From positions 1 through 31,993 of the IMG/VR virus record IMGVR_UViG_3300048589_000419: a DNA stretch of 31,993 bases; one strand, given 5' to 3'. Position numbers and translations under genes: made by a program. Below, in pieces: positions 2 to 29,120 of the stretch; the first letter of the stretch is position 1; each line of letters starts with the position of its first letter. The DNA is from a virus. The notes under the pieces are model-generated. The model searched no databases and was not told the DNA's origin. It was given only the letters and a program-made list of their open reading frames with translations.

Positions 2-1030
2 TACCGGATCGCCGCATCGAACCGAGGTGGAGCCCGCGGCAAGGACGCCATCGACCTGCTCATCATCGACGAGCTCCGGGAGCAGGTGGACTGGGACGTC
101 ATCAGCGCGGCCGAACCGACGATGACGATGTCGGCGGACCCGCAGACCGTCTACCTCTCCAACATGGGCGACGACGATTCCGTCGTCCTCAACTCCCTCC
201 GTGCGCGAGCCGGCCATGACCCGCATCCGCTCGGAGCGGGACCGTTCGAGCCGGATGCGAGCCTGGCGTATCTGGAGTGGAGCGCAGCACCGCACCGGGC
301 CGATGACGACCGCGAGGGATGGGCCGAGGCGAACCCCGCGCTGGGGCACTTCCCCCAGGTCCTCCGTGAGCTCGAGCGCACGCACCGCGCCCGGAAGGCT
401 GACGGGCAGATGGGCATCTTCGAGACCGAGCGGCTGTGCCGGCGGTCGCGGACGATGCGCGAGCCGCTCGTCGCGGTCGCGACGTGGGTCGCCTGCGCCG
501 AGCCGGCGCTCCCGCCGCCCGTCAAGCCGTACCTCGCGGTCAGCATGGACCCCAGCGGCGGCAGGGCCAGTGTCGCGATGGCCTGGCGCTTGGACGATGG
601 CCGGGTGGCGCTGCGGATGCTCGGTGACTTCACGGGCAGCGCGGACGGCAAGCCCATCGACACGGACAAGCTGGGCCGGATCATCAAGGAGCAGGCCCGC
701 GAGCACAGGGCTCAGGGCCTCGGCTTCGACCCGATGACCGACACCGCTCTGTCCCGCTTCGCCGACCGATCCCATCCGATCAGCGCGACCACGTTCGCCA
801 ACGCCTCGGCGCGGTTCGTGACCGCCATCGCGGCAGGGACGCTCCGCTGGACGGACGCGGCGCCCGTCACCGAGGACCTGCTGTACACCACCCGCAAGGT
901 GAACGACGAGAAGGGCAGCTTCGAAGCTGTCCGCGGCAAGGACGACCGCCCCATCACCGCCAGCCTCGCCGCCATCCGCGCCGTGTGGCTGGCATCCGAT
1001 CCGCCGAAGACGAAGCGGGCCTCGTTCTGA
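2..1030 (+). CDS. terL: Large terminase subunit (C-terminal part, 5' end outside window)
   Basis: ATPase-nuclease motor that packages phage DNA into the prohead and cuts it. The frame is open from base 2, so the gene begins upstream; 342 codons are visible. Codons 18-24 read DLLIIDE, a Walker B motif with its catalytic glutamate, preceded by the SNRGGARGKD stretch typical of terminases. VYLSN shortly after fits the ATPase coupling motif. The RNase H-like nuclease follows: the first acidic residue is in SMDPSGG (codon 183), the second in GFDPMTD (about 243), and the third in KDDRPITASLAAIRAVW (about 314). The P-loop itself is missing because it lies to the left. An internal GTG at 86 is not the start, because Walker B lies before it. 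The portal gene follows after a 54-base gap, the usual order. The call is secure; the full length is unknown. Confidence 0.95.
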   Translation, partial: YRIAASNRGGARGKDAIDLLIIDELREQVDWDVISAAEPTMTMSADPQTVYLSNMGDDDSVVLNSLRARAGHDPHPLGAGPFEPDASLAYLEWSAAPHRADDDREGWAEANPALGHFPQVLRELERTHRARKADGQMGIFETERLCRRSRTMREPLVAVATWVACAEPALPPPVKPYLAVSMDPSGGRASVAMAWRLDDGRVALRMLGDFTGSADGKPIDTDKLGRIIKEQAREHRAQGLGFDPMTDTALSRFADRSHPISATTFANASARFVTAIAAGTLRWTDAAPVTEDLLYTTRKVNDEKGSFEAVRGKDDRPITASLAAIRAVWLASDPPKTKRASF

Positions 1031-4700: not shown

Positions 4701-5026
4701 AGCTCCCCCACCGGATCCTGATCGAGCGTGCGACCGCCGGCGCCGAGGATGAGCGCGGCATGCCCGGGCAGACGTGGGCCACGCTCGCGGACGGCATCCC
4801 GGCCTTCGTCCAGCCGCTCCAGTCCGAGGAGCTCGCGCAGCTCTCCCAGGGCGGACCGGTCGCCAGCGATCACGCCATCTACCTGCTGCCGACGGACCTT
4901 CGCGAGTCCGACCGCATCCGCTTCGATCCGTCCGACGGCCGCGTCTTCCAGGTCGACGGCATCCGCGACGAGGCCGGCCTCGGCCACCACCTCAAGGTCA
5001 TGGCTCACATGGTCGAGGCGCAGTGA
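4697..5026 (+). CDS. Head closure / head-tail joining protein
   Basis: About 109 residues, beginning MKLPHRILIERATAG. The mostly beta pattern (ILIER, then IPAFVQPLQSEEL, DHAIYLLP, DRIRFDPSDGRVFQVDGIRD and a closing strand LKVMAHMVEAQ) fits the phage head-tail joining family (SPP1 gp16-like stopper), which plugs the connector after packaging. An upstream in-frame GTG at 4676 exists, but ATG 4697 overlaps the previous stop in the ATGA arrangement used throughout this operon, so I prefer it. The stop TGA (5024-5026) shares its last base with the next ATG. Confidence 0.8.
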   Translation: MKLPHRILIERATAGAEDERGMPGQTWATLADGIPAFVQPLQSEELAQLSQGGPVASDHAIYLLPTDLRESDRIRFDPSDGRVFQVDGIRDEAGLGHHLKVMAHMVEAQ

Positions 5027-5535
5027 TGGCGCGCGGGAGGGTCCAGGGCCCGAGGTTCAAGAAGCTGCGCGGCCGCGCGCTCAACCGGAACCTCCTCAGC
5101 CAGGGCATCGTCCGTCGGCGGACCGGCAAGGGCACCTTCGTCGACCTCGACGTGTCACCGCTCTGGACCGCCGTCGCGGACGGTGTCGCGGCTGCCGCGG
5201 CCGAGCAGCTCGCCGATGCCACCTCGCACGCTCCCGATGACGAGACCACGCCCGGCAGCCGGATCCAGGACTCCGGGATCTGGGGCGTCTATGGCTTCGG
5301 TGGCCTGCTGGAGACTGGCGGCCCGGGCGAGTGGCGCAAGCCGCGATCGTTCCGGCCACAGCGCGAGGGCATCGACGCGGTCATCAGCTTCAAGAGCGGG
5401 CTCCACCACCTCCATGAGCTCGGCACGGTGTACCAGAAGGCCCGCCCGTACCTGGGCCCGGCCCGCCTGCGGATGGCCGACCGGCTGCCCGCGATCCTCG
5501 CAGCCCACTTCCCGAAAGGAGGACCCGACGCATGA
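5026..5535 (+). CDS. Tail completion protein, HK97 gp10-like
   Basis: A 169-residue basic protein beginning MARGRVQGPRFKKLRGRALN. Its middle holds a helix of about 20 residues (LWTAVADGVAAAAAEQLADA) followed by a loop and GLLETGGPGEWRKPRSF. This matches the HK97 gp10-like tail-completion family, which helps join the tail tube to the head. The long open frame extends upstream to 4774, but that part is a shadow of the head-closure gene; ATG 5026 overlaps the previous stop. It ends with an ATGA overlap to the next gene. Position and composition support the call. Confidence 0.75.
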   Translation: MARGRVQGPRFKKLRGRALNRNLLSQGIVRRRTGKGTFVDLDVSPLWTAVADGVAAAAAEQLADATSHAPDDETTPGSRIQDSGIWGVYGFGGLLETGGPGEWRKPRSFRPQREGIDAVISFKSGLHHLHELGTVYQKARPYLGPARLRMADRLPAILAAHFPKGGPDA

Positions 5536-5828
5536 GCATCTGGAAGAACACCGGCGCCGAGCCGGTCGCGTTCCGTGACGACGCCGGCAAGCGCATCGTG
5601 GAGCCGGGCGGCACGTTCGTCCTGGCCGGCGACCAGCACGCGCCGCTCGCGGAGACGATGGGCCTCGCCCGCCAGCCAGACCCCGAGCCGGTGGCGCCCG
5701 ACGCCAACCTCGACGAGCTCCAGGCTCAGGCCGAGGCGCTCGGTGTGAAGCCGGCCAGCCGTCGCAAGGCCGACGTCCGCGCCGCCGTCGTGGCCGTGAC
5801 GGGCGAGGCCGAGCGAGAGCCGGTCTGA
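5532..5828 (+). CDS. Small virion-region protein of unknown function with a SAP/Rho-N-like C-terminal motif
   Basis: 98 residues. The N-terminal half is short beta strands (WKNTGAEPVAFRDDAGKRIV, then GGTFVLAGD). The C-terminal half, DELQAQAEALGVKPASRRKADVR in two adjoining segments, has the helix-turn-helix spacing and the GVxPxSRRKAD pattern seen in SAP or Rho-N-like helical domains. Such small proteins between tail completion and tail terminator genes are common in actinophages, but I do not know a proven role. Translation is coupled to the upstream gene by an ATGA overlap. Confidence 0.7.
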   Translation: MSIWKNTGAEPVAFRDDAGKRIVEPGGTFVLAGDQHAPLAETMGLARQPDPEPVAPDANLDELQAQAEALGVKPASRRKADVRAAVVAVTGEAEREPV

Positions 5829-22662: not shown

Positions 22663-22754
22663 CCGACCCGTGGCTCGCCGAGCGCGTGGTCATCCCGCTG
22701 CTGCTGCTCGGGTTGATCCTGGCCGCCGGGATGTCGGGTGGGCCGTCAGCATGA
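22659..22754 (+). CDS. 31-residue micro membrane protein
   Basis: ATG 22659, stop 22752-22754, with ATGA overlaps on both sides. The core is one hydrophobic helix, VVIPLLLLGLILAAGMSG, with an acidic/aromatic N-terminus (MTDPWLAER). It lies between the previous membrane peptide and the RNA methyltransferase. Function unknown. Confidence 0.55.
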   Translation: MTDPWLAERVVIPLLLLGLILAAGMSGGPSA

Positions 22755-23272
22755 CCGCCGTCCGCGAGCAGACCCGGTACATGACGCGGCGCGCGTTCCG
22801 CAACCTGACCCGCGCCGACTACCCGACCGCGCCGCGACACTCCGTCCGGCTGGTCACCTACGCCACGGACCCGGCCAACATCGGCGGGATGGTCCGCACG
22901 GCGGAGGCGTTCATGGCGGACCGCCTGACGGCATTGAAGTCTCCAGGTGCGACCGCCGTCGGCACCGACCGGTGGCAGCCGGCGGAATACGGCTGGCATC
23001 TCGTCGAGGCCATCGCCGCCGCAAAAGCTGACGGCTACACCATCGTCGCGCTGGAACAGGCGACCGATGCCCACCGACTGCCGTGCGACCTGCCCGAGCG
23101 CATGTGTCTCGTGAGCGGCAACGAGGGCAGCGGTATCCCGGCGTCCGTGCTTTCCGCCGCTGACCTCGCGATCGAGATCCCGCAGTACGGGTTCGTGGGG
23201 TCGCTGAACGTCGTCACCGCCACCAGCATCGCCCTCTACGAGTGGGCGTCGCAATGGGCCCGCCCCCGATGA
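22751..23272 (+). CDS. SpoU/TrmH-type RNA 2'-O-ribose methyltransferase
   Basis: 173 residues from ATG 22751 (ATGA overlap). All three SPOUT knot motifs are present. Motif 1 is PANIGGMVRTAEAF (41-54, with the conserved Asn43 and the catalytic-type Arg49). Motif 2 is LVSGNEGSGIPASVL (120-134). Motif 3 is IEIPQYGFVGSLNVVTATSI (141-160, with the SLN loop). This fold binds S-adenosylmethionine in a trefoil knot and methylates a ribose 2'-OH in tRNA or rRNA. There is no L30e or THUMP-like extra domain, so the protein is minimal like TrmL. The target is unknown. It is an unusual gene for a phage early operon; protecting tRNA or modifying host translation are possible roles (inference). Confidence 0.85.
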   Translation: MTAVREQTRYMTRRAFRNLTRADYPTAPRHSVRLVTYATDPANIGGMVRTAEAFMADRLTALKSPGATAVGTDRWQPAEYGWHLVEAIAAAKADGYTIVALEQATDAHRLPCDLPERMCLVSGNEGSGIPASVLSAADLAIEIPQYGFVGSLNVVTATSIALYEWASQWARPR

Positions 23273-26093: not shown

Positions 26094-26476
26094 CCATCAC
26101 CACTCCGAAGCCCACCCGAGCCCCGAACCTGCGAGAGCGCTACGACGTGCTCGCGAGCTCGGGCTTCCGGTGCGACTACTGCGGCCGCGGCAAGGCCGAT
26201 GGCGCCCGCCTGTCGGTGGATCACGTGGTGGCGCGAGCCGCCGGGGGGACCCACGACCGCGTCAACCTGGTGACCGCCTGCACGACGTGCAACCAGGGCA
26301 AGGCCGATCGCCCCATCCCCTACCCCCGGTGGGAGCGGATCGGCGCAGAGCGATGGGACCGCTGCGAGTGTTCCGGTGGCCCTGCGGCGCTCGAGGCATC
26401 CCCCACCGAGCCGATGCTGCTCTGCACCGCCTGCCGGTACCCAGCGTTCCAGCGCACCTTCGGCGCCGCCCGATGA
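26090..26476 (+). CDS. HNH endonuclease
   Basis: 128 residues from ATG 26090 (ATGA overlap). FRCDYCGRGKADGARLSVDH, then VVARAAGGTHDRVNLVTACT and TCNQGKAD give a complete HNH core: C-x2-C, the DH pair, the Asn in RVNLV and the second C-x2-C-N. A third zinc-like part follows (CECSG...LLCTACRYP). The enzyme should nick or cut DNA with one metal ion. Placed between SSB-like and primase-helicase genes, it may act in replication or recombination rather than in packaging. Confidence 0.85.
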   Translation: MTITTPKPTRAPNLRERYDVLASSGFRCDYCGRGKADGARLSVDHVVARAAGGTHDRVNLVTACTTCNQGKADRPIPYPRWERIGAERWDRCECSGGPAALEASPTEPMLLCTACRYPAFQRTFGAAR

Positions 26477-28896
26477 CCGCGGCCGTCGCTGCCCCCCGCC
26501 CGACCAACGAGGCGCGGATCAAGGCCGCGCTCTGGTTCGCCGAGCAGGGCTTCGGCGTGTTCTCCTGCTGGTCGACCTGGCCGGATGGTCGCTGCCGCTG
26601 TCCAGGCGGGCGTGACTGCACCCCCGGCAAGCACCCGATGACGCAGCACGGGCTCGACGACGCCACCACGGACCCCAAGGCCATCCGCGCGATGCTGTCG
26701 GCCGCGTCCGACCCCAACTACGGGCTGCTGCCGCCGGATGGTGTCTTCGTCTGGGACGTGGACGGCGAGGGCTGGGAGCAGCGACTCGCGGAGCTCGAGA
26801 GCCAGCACGGCCCGCTACCGGACACGATCCGGACCGCGACCCGTAACGGCCAGCACATCTACCTGCGGTGGCCGGACAGCCACCCGCGGCCGCTCAAGGC
26901 GATGTTCGGATGGGTGACCCGCTGGGGCACCGGCGCGTCGAACCGACGGGGGTACGTGATCGGCCCCCGATCCGTTCACGCGTCCGGCTTTGAGTACGCC
27001 CCGGTCGGCGCCTTCACGCTGGCGACGCTACCGGATGCCTGGGCCCGCGCTGCGCTGGAGGGTGAGACGGCGCTCGGGACCATCCGCATCGGTGGCTCGG
27101 CCGACCCCTCCACCGTCGCGATCGGCGGCCGCCACGACTGGCTGCGCAACCGAGCCCGATTCCTGGCCGGTGTCATCCGGGATCCCGAGACGCTGCTCAC
27201 GGTGATGCTCGCGGAGAACGACCGGCTGCCCTCGCCGAAGACGCGCGATGATGTCGCCCGGGCCATCGGCGACGCGCTGGTGAAGTTCCCTGCGGATGAG
27301 GTGGAGACCACGGAGGATGGCGCGGAGCGCCGCGTGTCGGCCGCGACCGATGACCCCGGCATCCTGCCACCACCGACGTCCGACGCCTTCCCGGAGCCGC
27401 CCGATGCGATCGCGTTCGGCGGCCTCGTAGGCGAGTGTGTCCGGTCCTTGGCCGCGCACACCGACGCCTCCCTGGCTGGCCTCCTGGCGTCGTTCCTGGC
27501 CGTCTGTGGCGCCCTGGTGCCCTCCAGCGCCCACGCCCGCGGGGAGCAGACCAGCAGCCCGTTCATCGCGCTGGTGGGCGAGTCCGGTATCGGGCGCAAG
27601 GGCACCGCCATGAACCGGGGCCTGGGCGCCGCCCGGCTCGTCTGGCCGACCGAGGAGGTGGAAGACATCCTGCTCGACGGCCTGAACAGCGGAGAGGCGC
27701 TGGTGGCCGCCCTGCACGACCAGGCGGAAGCCAACCGGCGGTATCGCCGCGGCGATGGGCCGGTGGTCGGGCTCGTGTTCGAGGAGGAGTTCGTCAACAT
27801 GCTCTCCTCCCGGGCCCGCGATGGATCGACGCTCGACGGGAAGCTGCGCGTGGCGTTCGATGGTGGGTCGCTGTCAAACCGGAAAGCCAACGATTCCAAG
27901 GTGGTCCGCTCAGGCTACGTCCTGCCCGCCCTGGCCGGCATCACGCCACTGGAGCTCCGGCAGCGCCTGGAGAAGGACTCGGCACACACGGGCGCCGCGA
28001 ACCGGTGGCTGTACGTGCCGGTCGTCAAGCGCGACGAGATCGTGCCCGACGAACCACCAGAGCTCCCGCTGGAGCTGAACGTCGCCCTCAAGAAGGCGCG
28101 GGCCGAATCACCCCGCAGGCTCACCGTGACGCCGGCGACGGCGCGCCTGGTGTCCGAGTACGCCGAGCACGTCACGACGACATCCGCGGGTGTCGCCCGC
28201 GACCTGGTGCGGCGATACGGGACCATCGCGGTCCGGCTGGCGATGATCCACGCCGCCGTGGAGCGGTCGCCGGTGGTCGGTGCCCAGCACCTCGAGCGAG
28301 CGGTGGCCCTGACCGAGTACGCACGGCGCGGCATCGCGTGGGTGTTCGGCCAGACGATCGGCAGCCGCGACGCCGACCTGCTCCTGCGGCACCTCCGCCA
28401 GTCCGGGCCGCTGCGGAAGAACACCATCACCCGGCACATCATCCGGGACCCCCAGCGGCAGCAGGACGCTATCGACGAGCTCGTGCGCCTGGGGTATGCG
28501 GCCGTCGAGATCACCGCCCCGACCACCGGCGGGCGCCTCACGCAGCTCCGGGCGACCGGCCTGGGGGTGGCGTTCGTCCCGTTCGTCCAAGTATTCGCGG
28601 AATCACATGGCGTGAATCACGTAAACCTTGGACGTCTGGACGAACGACCCCCGATTGAGCACGAAATGGCGGGTTTCGGACTGGACGAACGGTGGACGAA
28701 CGCGGGACGAACGGTGGACGAACGCGGTCATACGGAGCCATCCGAGGCGGTCGTCGACATCACCACCGGTGAGGTGGAGCCACGGGGGTCAGCCGAGTGG
28801 GCGGCCCCATGTCGCGCCTACACCGAGCACCGCGACCACCACCGGAACACCCCGGCCGGGTGGGTGTGCCTGGCCTGCGCGCCACAGGAGGGATGA
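26473..28896 (+). CDS. Primase-polymerase / helicase fusion (Prim-Pol + DUF3987-like)
   Basis: 807 residues from ATG 26473 (ATGA overlap). Residues ~10-190 are an AEP-type bifunctional primase-polymerase: a Cys-rich insert CRCPGGRDCTPGKHP (41-55), catalytic VFVWDVDGEG (DVD at 95-97), RNGQHIYLR (124-132) and RGYVIGPRSVHASG (159-172). Residues ~310-720 are a DUF3987-like ATPase: GESGIGRKGTA (369-379, a Walker A variant), LVFEEEF (434-440, Walker B) and ITPLELRQRLEKDSAHTG followed by AANRWLYVPVVKR. A winged-helix-like region (LLRHLRQSGPLRKNTITRHI) and a small zinc-like end (CRAYTEHRDHHR...CLAC) follow. It should prime and unwind DNA at the phage origin. The stretch 28571-28724 also carries DNA iterons, so a linker of this protein is shaped by them. 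Confidence 0.9.
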   Translation: MTAAVAAPRPTNEARIKAALWFAEQGFGVFSCWSTWPDGRCRCPGGRDCTPGKHPMTQHGLDDATTDPKAIRAMLSAASDPNYGLLPPDGVFVWDVDGEGWEQRLAELESQHGPLPDTIRTATRNGQHIYLRWPDSHPRPLKAMFGWVTRWGTGASNRRGYVIGPRSVHASGFEYAPVGAFTLATLPDAWARAALEGETALGTIRIGGSADPSTVAIGGRHDWLRNRARFLAGVIRDPETLLTVMLAENDRLPSPKTRDDVARAIGDALVKFPADEVETTEDGAERRVSAATDDPGILPPPTSDAFPEPPDAIAFGGLVGECVRSLAAHTDASLAGLLASFLAVCGALVPSSAHARGEQTSSPFIALVGESGIGRKGTAMNRGLGAARLVWPTEEVEDILLDGLNSGEALVAALHDQAEANRRYRRGDGPVVGLVFEEEFVNMLSSRARDGSTLDGKLRVAFDGGSLSNRKANDSKVVRSGYVLPALAGITPLELRQRLEKDSAHTGAANRWLYVPVVKRDEIVPDEPPELPLELNVALKKARAESPRRLTVTPATARLVSEYAEHVTTTSAGVARDLVRRYGTIAVRLAMIHAAVERSPVVGAQHLERAVALTEYARRGIAWVFGQTIGSRDADLLLRHLRQSGPLRKNTITRHIIRDPQRQQDAIDELVRLGYAAVEITAPTTGGRLTQLRATGLGVAFVPFVQVFAESHGVNHVNLGRLDERPPIEHEMAGFGLDERWTNAGRTVDERGHTEPSEAVVDITTGEVEPRGSAEWAAPCRAYTEHRDHHRNTPAGWVCLACAPQEG
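28571..28724. repeat. Iteron array GGACGAACG, candidate replication origin
   Basis: Seven perfect copies of a 9-mer. Two inverted tandem copies (CGTTCGTCC at 28571-28579 and 28580-28588) precede direct copies at 28638-28646, 28683-28691, 28694-28702, 28705-28713 and 28716-28724. The last four repeat every 11 bp with alternating 2-base spacers GT/CG. Between the inverted and direct copies the DNA becomes AT-richer (28589-28635) and holds two GAATCAC repeats (28600-28606, 28614-28620). The 11-bp pitch is not a multiple of three, so the encoded residues differ from copy to copy and the constraint is on DNA. An iteron array plus an AT-rich stretch inside a replication gene resembles the lambda O/ori arrangement. 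Confidence 0.75.
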
Positions 28897-29079
28897 ATGC
28901 CCAGGGAGGTCGAGACCCACGCCCGCGAGCAGGCGAAGGCCAACGCTCGGTACGCGGTGGAGAACGCCGAGGAGAGCCCCGAGGTCGCGGCGCAGGTAGC
29001 GATCGCCTACGCGCTGCTGGACATCGCCGACGCACTGCGATCGGCGTCGAGGACGAAGGAGGAGGGAGCCAGACGATGA
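28897..29079 (+). CDS. Small helical hypothetical protein
   Basis: 60 residues; GGAGGG upstream and ATG 28897 directly after the helicase TGA. Essentially one or two helices: EVETHAREQAKANARYAVEN, then AEESPEVAAQVAIAYALLDI and ADALRSASRTKEEGARR. Charged and Ala-rich, likely a coiled coil. Not recognised. Confidence 0.65.
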   Translation: MPREVETHAREQAKANARYAVENAEESPEVAAQVAIAYALLDIADALRSASRTKEEGARR

Positions 29080-29120
29080 ACGGTCCGGATGCGATCGACA
29101 TGCGGAGGCAGGTGGCATGA
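29076..29120 (+). CDS. Putative 14-residue coupling peptide
   Basis: ATG 29076 overlaps the preceding stop, and TGA 29118-29120 overlaps the next ATG, with AAGGAGGAGGGA upstream. The peptide (MNGPDAIDMRRQVA) is too short for a domain; it may only carry ribosomes from one gene to the next. Weakly supported. Confidence 0.3.
   Translation: MNGPDAIDMRRQVA

Follow-up and report, generated by a model that had tools for sequence, protein, structure and literature searches.

The replication origins of many phages and integrative elements have not, to our knowledge, been established. In the classical case of phage lambda, iterons and an AT-rich segment lie inside the coding sequence of the initiator O, in the middle of the gene, and O is neither a helicase nor a primase. 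SaPI Rep and SCCmec Cch2 carry a C-terminal domain that binds iterons directly downstream of the protein's own gene, two hexamers having been suggested, and the SCCmec helicase Cch is described in the same source as similar to MCM (PMC7581432). The ORF904 protein of pRN1 combines a Prim-Pol domain, a superfamily 3 helicase and a C-terminal winged helix (WH) in one polypeptide, and pRN1 requires 166 bp located 3' of that gene, described as a stem-loop region without iterons (PMC4234260). The alpha protein of phage P4 is described there as a multifunctional primase-helicase that has a Toprim-type primase and a WH and that binds origin repeats (PMC4234260). The WH of Prim-Pol fusions has been predicted to recognise origins and DUF3987 has been predicted to be a helicase (PMC5862659), and the origins of archaeal plasmids with MCM-like replication proteins have been predicted from skew and repeats (PMC6972569). 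A search of the open-licence literature found no described origin for DUF3987 initiators and no match for YfjI together with iteron.

The window, which is the whole 31,993-nt stretch of viral DNA analysed here, contains an iteron array inside a gene encoding a Prim-Pol/DUF3987/WH protein. This array very likely serves a tailed phage as its replication origin, lodged within the initiator gene itself; the WH would bind it, the MCM-like domain would melt it and the Prim-Pol domain would prime it. As at lambda ori, iterons and an AT-rich segment lie within the initiator gene, but here the initiator has primase and helicase domains and the array is located in the 3' part of the gene. As in SaPI Rep and SCCmec Cch2, the iterons lie directly 3' of the codons for the C-terminal DNA-binding domain of the helicase, here a predicted WH; unlike in those systems, primase, helicase and WH form one Prim-Pol/DUF3987 protein and, in the viral clade of the window, the array lies inside the reading frame, before a zinc-finger-like tail. 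By analogy, the unit of array and initiator would work like the SaPI and SCCmec modules while belonging to the DUF3987 Prim-Pol initiators. The domain combination of Prim-Pol, helicase and WH is shared with pRN1, an essential region of which lies 3' of the gene, but iterons are present in the window in place of a stem-loop origin. P4 alpha is likewise a primase-helicase with a WH, differing in its Toprim-type primase where the window protein has Prim-Pol. The window protein gave no Pfam row at E 1 for DUF927 (the SaPI Rep/Cch type) and matched no O-type Pfam family; Rep/Cch and lambda O were compared with it by description.

The initiator gene (26470..28896, + strand), delimited by Pfam matches and codon-position GC, lies within an open reading frame at 26170-28896. 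Its probable start is the ATG at 26470, which is favoured by a GC3 of at least 0.80 in sliding windows from 26470 to the array, against 0.60-0.73 before 26470. Overall, GC3 is 0.90 in the gene body, 0.62 in the array and 0.82 in 28726-28893 beyond it. The gene had been described, in a sequence-only reading of this DNA, as a Prim-Pol/DUF3987 fusion, and both Pfam domains were recovered above their curated cut-offs: the Prim-Pol (archaeo-eukaryotic primase) domain (PF09250; 26527..27036, +; residues 120-289 of P0001) with E 2e-26 and 93.8 bits against a cut-off of 22.8, and DUF3987 (PF13148) with E 2e-9 and 37.6 bits against a cut-off of 27.

An AlphaFold2 model, built on an alignment of 36 sequences, predicts an MCM fold for the DUF3987 ATPase core (27388..28347, +), which occupies model residues 1-320 with block pLDDT values of 71-97. 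Structure searches with this core (Foldseek, VIA-align) returned MCM helicases or MCM-containing complexes as their top rows, the best match of the predicted model having Z 19.2 over 266 residues with an rmsd of 3.5 A, and the best 50 rows of the structure comparison were all MCM or MCM-containing entries. A BFVD search gave for the most part unnamed proteins or helicases, primases and DUF3987 proteins, which told nothing further of the mechanism, and a sequence profile searched against the PDB gave weak best matches to MCM6 (E 0.003) and, over the WH, to a transcriptional regulator (E 0.009).

The WH (28366..28554, +) is the proposed iteron binder on the basis of the model, these weak profile matches and co-variation. 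Its elements in the model follow the WH order (H327-339, H344-351, H355-367, E371-376, E384-389), with block pLDDT of 89-94 across model residues 327-389 and 81-82 in the last two blocks. Its codons end at 28554, which is 16 nt upstream of the first iteron. Model confidence is low for the stretch encoded by the array (pLDDT 56-60 over residues 391-410 and below 50 for 411-502); this stretch is probably flexible and connects the WH to the C-terminal zinc-finger-like tail (28810..28893, +), a C-x6-H-x3-H ... W-x-C-x2-C motif seen in the translation beyond the array.

The sequence-only reading had reported five direct and two inverted copies of a 9-bp unit in 154 bp, with an 11-bp pitch and GT/CG spacers, and the positions of the exact copies confirm this description. 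The seven exact GGACGAACG copies lie at 28571(-), 28580(-), 28638(+), 28683(+), 28694(+), 28705(+) and 28716(+). The left block consists of two inverted iterons at 9-bp pitch (28571..28588, - strand); the right block consists of a first direct iteron (28638..28646, +), identified by the exact-copy count, and four direct iterons at an exact 11-bp pitch (28683..28724, +), separated by GT, CG and GT. Between the blocks lies an AT-rich gap (28589..28637), a proposed unwinding element by its GC content and its GAATCAC units. The gap was rightly described as AT-richer: at 47% GC against 71% for the window it is the AT-richest 49-bp segment of the window, the fraction of 49-bp segments with GC as low being 9.4e-5. 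The GAATCAC repeats claimed for it are located at 28600 and 28614, the motif occurring elsewhere in the window once, at 28105. A degenerate copy, GGACGTCT, was seen by eye at 28630, inside the gap. The window contains several direct repeats adjoining an AT-rich segment, as iteron origins do. A near-palindrome, CGTGAATCACG, at 28611-28621 in the AT-rich gap includes one of the two GAATCAC units. The strand at the array folds better than shuffled sequences (z -2.4, with 4 of 200 shuffles equally good), which can be due to the inverted iterons.

The array is far above chance and near-unique in the virus. Outside it, the window has one exact GGACGAACG copy, at 5614(-), and the genome-wide count proposed in the sequence-only reading gave eight copies in the 40,330-bp record of the same virus (protein 100% identical), seven of them within the array. 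Other 9-mers reach at most 3 copies per 200 bp of window, shifted forms of the GGACGAACG unit excepted, and in 60 simulated first-order Markov windows the maximum for any 9-mer was 2 or 3 copies per 200 bp. The cumulative GC skew of the 40-kb virus has its minimum at about 35.4 kb of the record, the array being located at 36.95-37.10 kb, and its total range of about 350 is by estimate the size of a random walk, making the skew uninformative on origin position.

The start of the 40,330-bp record (L259 1-120) overlaps the window end, which suggests a circular or circularly permuted genome, essentially complete at about 40 kb. An integrase-like open reading frame, recognised by eye at L259 1733-2875, suggests a temperate phage. 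A SpoU-family RNA methyltransferase (PF00588, E 2e-23) is encoded at window positions 22670-23272 (+) and seems unusual phage cargo.

In the proposed origin model, one initiator polypeptide would comprise the Prim-Pol primase, the MCM-like DUF3987 helicase, the WH, the flexible stretch and the zinc-finger-like tail. The WH would bind the 9-bp iterons, and the oppositely oriented left and right blocks would load two helicase rings flanking the AT-rich gap, by analogy with SaPI Rep; the helicase would then melt the gap and Prim-Pol would prime it. The candidate origin of the sequence-only reading is supported by the rarity of the 9-mer, the arrays of relatives and the family-wide arrays located 3' of the WH; the mixed pitch of the copies, 9 and 11 bp, which blurs the stoichiometry on each side, counts against it.

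An improbable alternative is that the array is an operator or a copy-control (incompatibility) site, through which the WH or a phage repressor would regulate the initiator or downstream genes. Winged-helix proteins are often transcription regulators and plasmid iterons commonly limit copy number too, general roles that agree with such a site, as does the position of the array, which is well suited to acting on the genes immediately downstream. A scan of 28300-29120 for sigma-70-like promoters, the one promoter type it covered, and for terminators found neither, which argues against an operator, and an AT-rich gap between opposed blocks, adjacent to the WH of a helicase, suits an origin better. 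Operator or copy-control functions and an origin function are mutually compatible.

Arrays were also sought in the wider DUF3987-WH family by way of a 12-sequence DUF3987-WH profile, which had matches in 9 of 400 Chloroflexota genomes, 17 of 396 Actinomycetota genomes and 47 viral loci. From the 115 open reading frames matched, 7 were dropped (4 without a C-terminus, 2 with short flanks and 1 running off) together with 31 near-duplicates, leaving 77: a close family of 52 genes scoring above 300 bits, which includes the window and from which the viral relatives L293, L295 and L296 are absent, and 25 more distant genes. In 48 of these 52 genes, the end lies at most 25 residues from the profile end, which corresponds to the WH end. 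Immediately beyond the WH codons, a self-match of at least 8 of 9 bases is present at a 9-bp lag in 21 of 52 genes and at an 18-bp lag in 11 of 52, each of the remaining lags from 6 to 25 bp being represented in at most 4 of 52; at the 9-bp lag, control positions 300 bp upstream and 800 bp downstream gave 0 of 52 and 3 of 51, respectively. Mean GC over the 160 bp after the WH is 0.05-0.13 below the locus mean across the 52 genes. At least four copies of an 8-mer per 400 bp were found in 15 of 52 regions, compared with 27 of 1392 control windows from the same loci. With one mismatch allowed, 34 of the 52 loci have an array that reaches significance (p at most 0.05 against 60 Markov shuffles per locus).

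The typical layout of the family consists of copies at 9-bp pitch, an AT-rich stretch and inverted copies. Across the 34 loci with a significant array, the pitch between same-strand neighbours is most often 9 bp (47 cases), followed by 18 bp (10) and 8 bp (8), and the 11-bp pitch occurs in 3 cases, the number contributed by the window itself. Among the right-hand copies, inverted ones predominate in 25 loci and direct ones in 6, with 2 ties and 1 locus that has none (p 9e-4). The 30 bp of lowest GC fall inside the array span in 30 of 33 loci (0.54 expected), and 19 of 34 units contain a CGAA/TTCG core, compared with 4.3 expected from shuffled units. The stop codon precedes the array in 17 loci, falls within it in 14 and follows it in 3. 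The reading frame runs through the array in the viral clade of the window, and in most array-bearing relatives it stops before or inside the array.

The absence of a significant array from 18 of the 52 loci counts against the origin reading, as does the scarcity of arrays in the distant group, many members of which resemble Ibantik of Streptomyces: the 9-bp lag is present in 1 of 25 and at least four copies of an 8-mer in 3 of 25. The genes of Ibantik, P318 and Perlina have no array at their 3' ends, and the Nonomuraea locus L286 has no 8-mer with three copies near the gene end. One array scan covered 37 loci (L144-L180). In Acidobacteriota, at least four copies were found in 5 of 24 loci (25 scanned, of which 1 ran off), a count that has no matched control and in which a few of the chosen open reading frames may not be the DUF3987 gene.

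Across the 34 loci with a significant array, the more alike two WH domains are, the more alike are their iterons (rho 0.36). The correlation persists given helicase identity (partial rho 0.23, permutation p 5e-4, n=34), compared with a correlation between iterons and helicase given WH identity of 0.05 (p 0.26, n=34); because iteron similarity tracks the WH, and not the helicase given the WH, the WH is singled out as the likely binder. The WH and the iterons adjoin on the DNA, so that shared inheritance can inflate their correlation. It had been proposed that the C-terminal region of the same protein might bind the array, and this proposal gains support from the adjacency of the WH to the array and from the co-variation. 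Taking position, fold and co-variation together, the WH of the initiator itself is the likely iteron binder.

Arrays above controls are also present in three of five named DUF3987 records, these being two small plasmids and one phage. An 18-kb Streptomyces plasmid (L287) has eight TGACAGAA copies, five direct and three inverted (controls up to 3), in an array that starts at the stop codon of a YfjI-family gene, and a 19-kb Pseudomonas putida plasmid and phage NatCom_43819 each have four copies of a unit of their own (controls up to 3). Two records count against the origin reading: in Streptococcus phage Javan191 the three copies equal its best control window, and no array was found in Pectobacterium phage Ymer. 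A TGACA(A/G)AA iteron core is common to the DUF3987 replicons L287 (~4977-5230), L289 (~5000-5230) and L290 (~4970-5130), the hosts of which are very different, and it is unlike the CGAA core common in the clade of the window.

Repeat arrays also act as partition centromeres and packaging signals, and the array could on this precedent be a packaging (pac/cos) or a partition or recombination site that lies in the initiator gene by coincidence. This is very improbable, given that the initiator WH is followed by an array in contigs of viruses and of bacterial genomes and in plasmids alike, that the iterons co-vary with the WH and that the terminase gene is located at the opposite end of the window (86-1030).

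An origin paired with its own initiator may be a general property of the family. We consider it somewhat more probable than the contrary that DUF3987 (YfjI-type) MCM-like initiators are portable cassettes of initiator plus origin, with an iteron origin at the 3' end of the gene and matched evolution of WH and iterons, and that in the clade of the window the origin serves as an in-frame flexible linker from the WH to a zinc finger, constrained both as an origin and as an open frame. If DUF3987 initiators do mark their own origin, origins would be predictable from sequence in many phages, plasmids and islands, the WH-iteron pairs of differing specificity would form a natural set for the study of initiator site choice, and a predicted helicase family would gain a testable role in origin melting. 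The locus would also be a clear case of an origin that is required to remain an open reading frame. Two features seem to be new: the family-wide rule, and an array that four viruses carry within the frame, ahead of a zinc-finger-like tail.

A single-sequence search matched the virus itself alone in the viral contigs and gave no match in the genome contigs, and the other three of these four viruses (L293, L295 and L296) were found with a profile that combined the window protein with a fragment 57% identical to it (L144). Their proteins are 55% (L293), 50% (L295) and 46% (L296) identical to the window protein, and their genes are complete at the 3' end. In all three, the frame is open through an array of similar layout and ends with a similar C/H zinc-finger-like motif. 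In L293, a pair of inverted copies at 9-bp pitch precedes six direct copies, of which the final four are spaced at 11 bp, and all 8 copies carry the unit GGACGAAA, the window counterpart of which, GGACGAAC, is present in 7 of 7 copies. L295 has four exact direct GCGCAGAAG copies, three of which form, with a unit off by one base (by eye), a four-unit block in 11-bp steps; upstream of it lies a CTTTCGCG pair at 9-bp pitch (by eye), which resembles the right-hand unit in inverse orientation without matching it exactly. In L296, TGCACGA occurs four times direct, in pairs at 9 and 11 bp, and once inverted. The absence from L295 of any exact inverted copy of the right-hand unit, and the presence of just one in L296, count against the origin reading.

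The iterons changed in concert across the window, L293, L295 and L296. Identity to the window in the protein encoded by the array is 34% in L293, 17% in L295 and 11% in L296, and WH identity is 50%, 38% and 51%, respectively. In the comparison with relatives suggested in the sequence-only reading, the type of DNA array is kept while the frame and the encoded protein are not; the 9-mer itself has changed in concert. The claim that the copies fall in different frames also held, the copies at 28571 and 28580 sharing one frame and the five direct copies lying in frames 2, 2, 1, 0 and 2, such that all three frames are used. The starting frame of the 11-bp block is 2 for the window and L296 and 1 for L293 and L295. 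The concerted change of the iterons, together with the shift of the 11-bp block to another frame in two relatives, indicates selection on the DNA. That the repeats reflect a feature of the protein, or arose by chance tandem expansion, is scarcely credible: they do lie within an open frame, and one frame of the left pair reads FVPFV, but the copies occupy three frames and both orientations, relatives keep the type of DNA array although two of the three read its 11-bp block in a different frame, and the encoded protein shows poor conservation and a low-confidence model.

Two further viral loci, L298 (to 7049) and L299 (to 4886), encode a related Prim-Pol and a similar zinc-finger-like tail with a different C-terminal half. 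No 8-mer with three copies was found in the C-terminal half of L298, and no clear array in L299. Judging from these sequences, the primase seems to keep its zinc tail even where the helicase type differs.

A DNA pattern scan of viral contigs returned at least 120 stretches, many of them coding or low-complexity. Among the matches listed, 17 loci have at least three copies per 250 bp, one of these being the virus itself (L105), and tblastn (E 1) of 132 loci found the gene in loci of the virus alone. Two unrelated viral contigs, L030 (2586-2727) and L032 (4031-4214), contain GGACGAAC-containing units in both orientations and are possibly other iteron origins. Repeats containing GGGACGAACTG are present in L051 (7058-7124), L110 (11162-11228) and L122 (4005-4071), within a gene that appears by eye to be helix-turn-helix-like and is perhaps another initiator with internal iterons.
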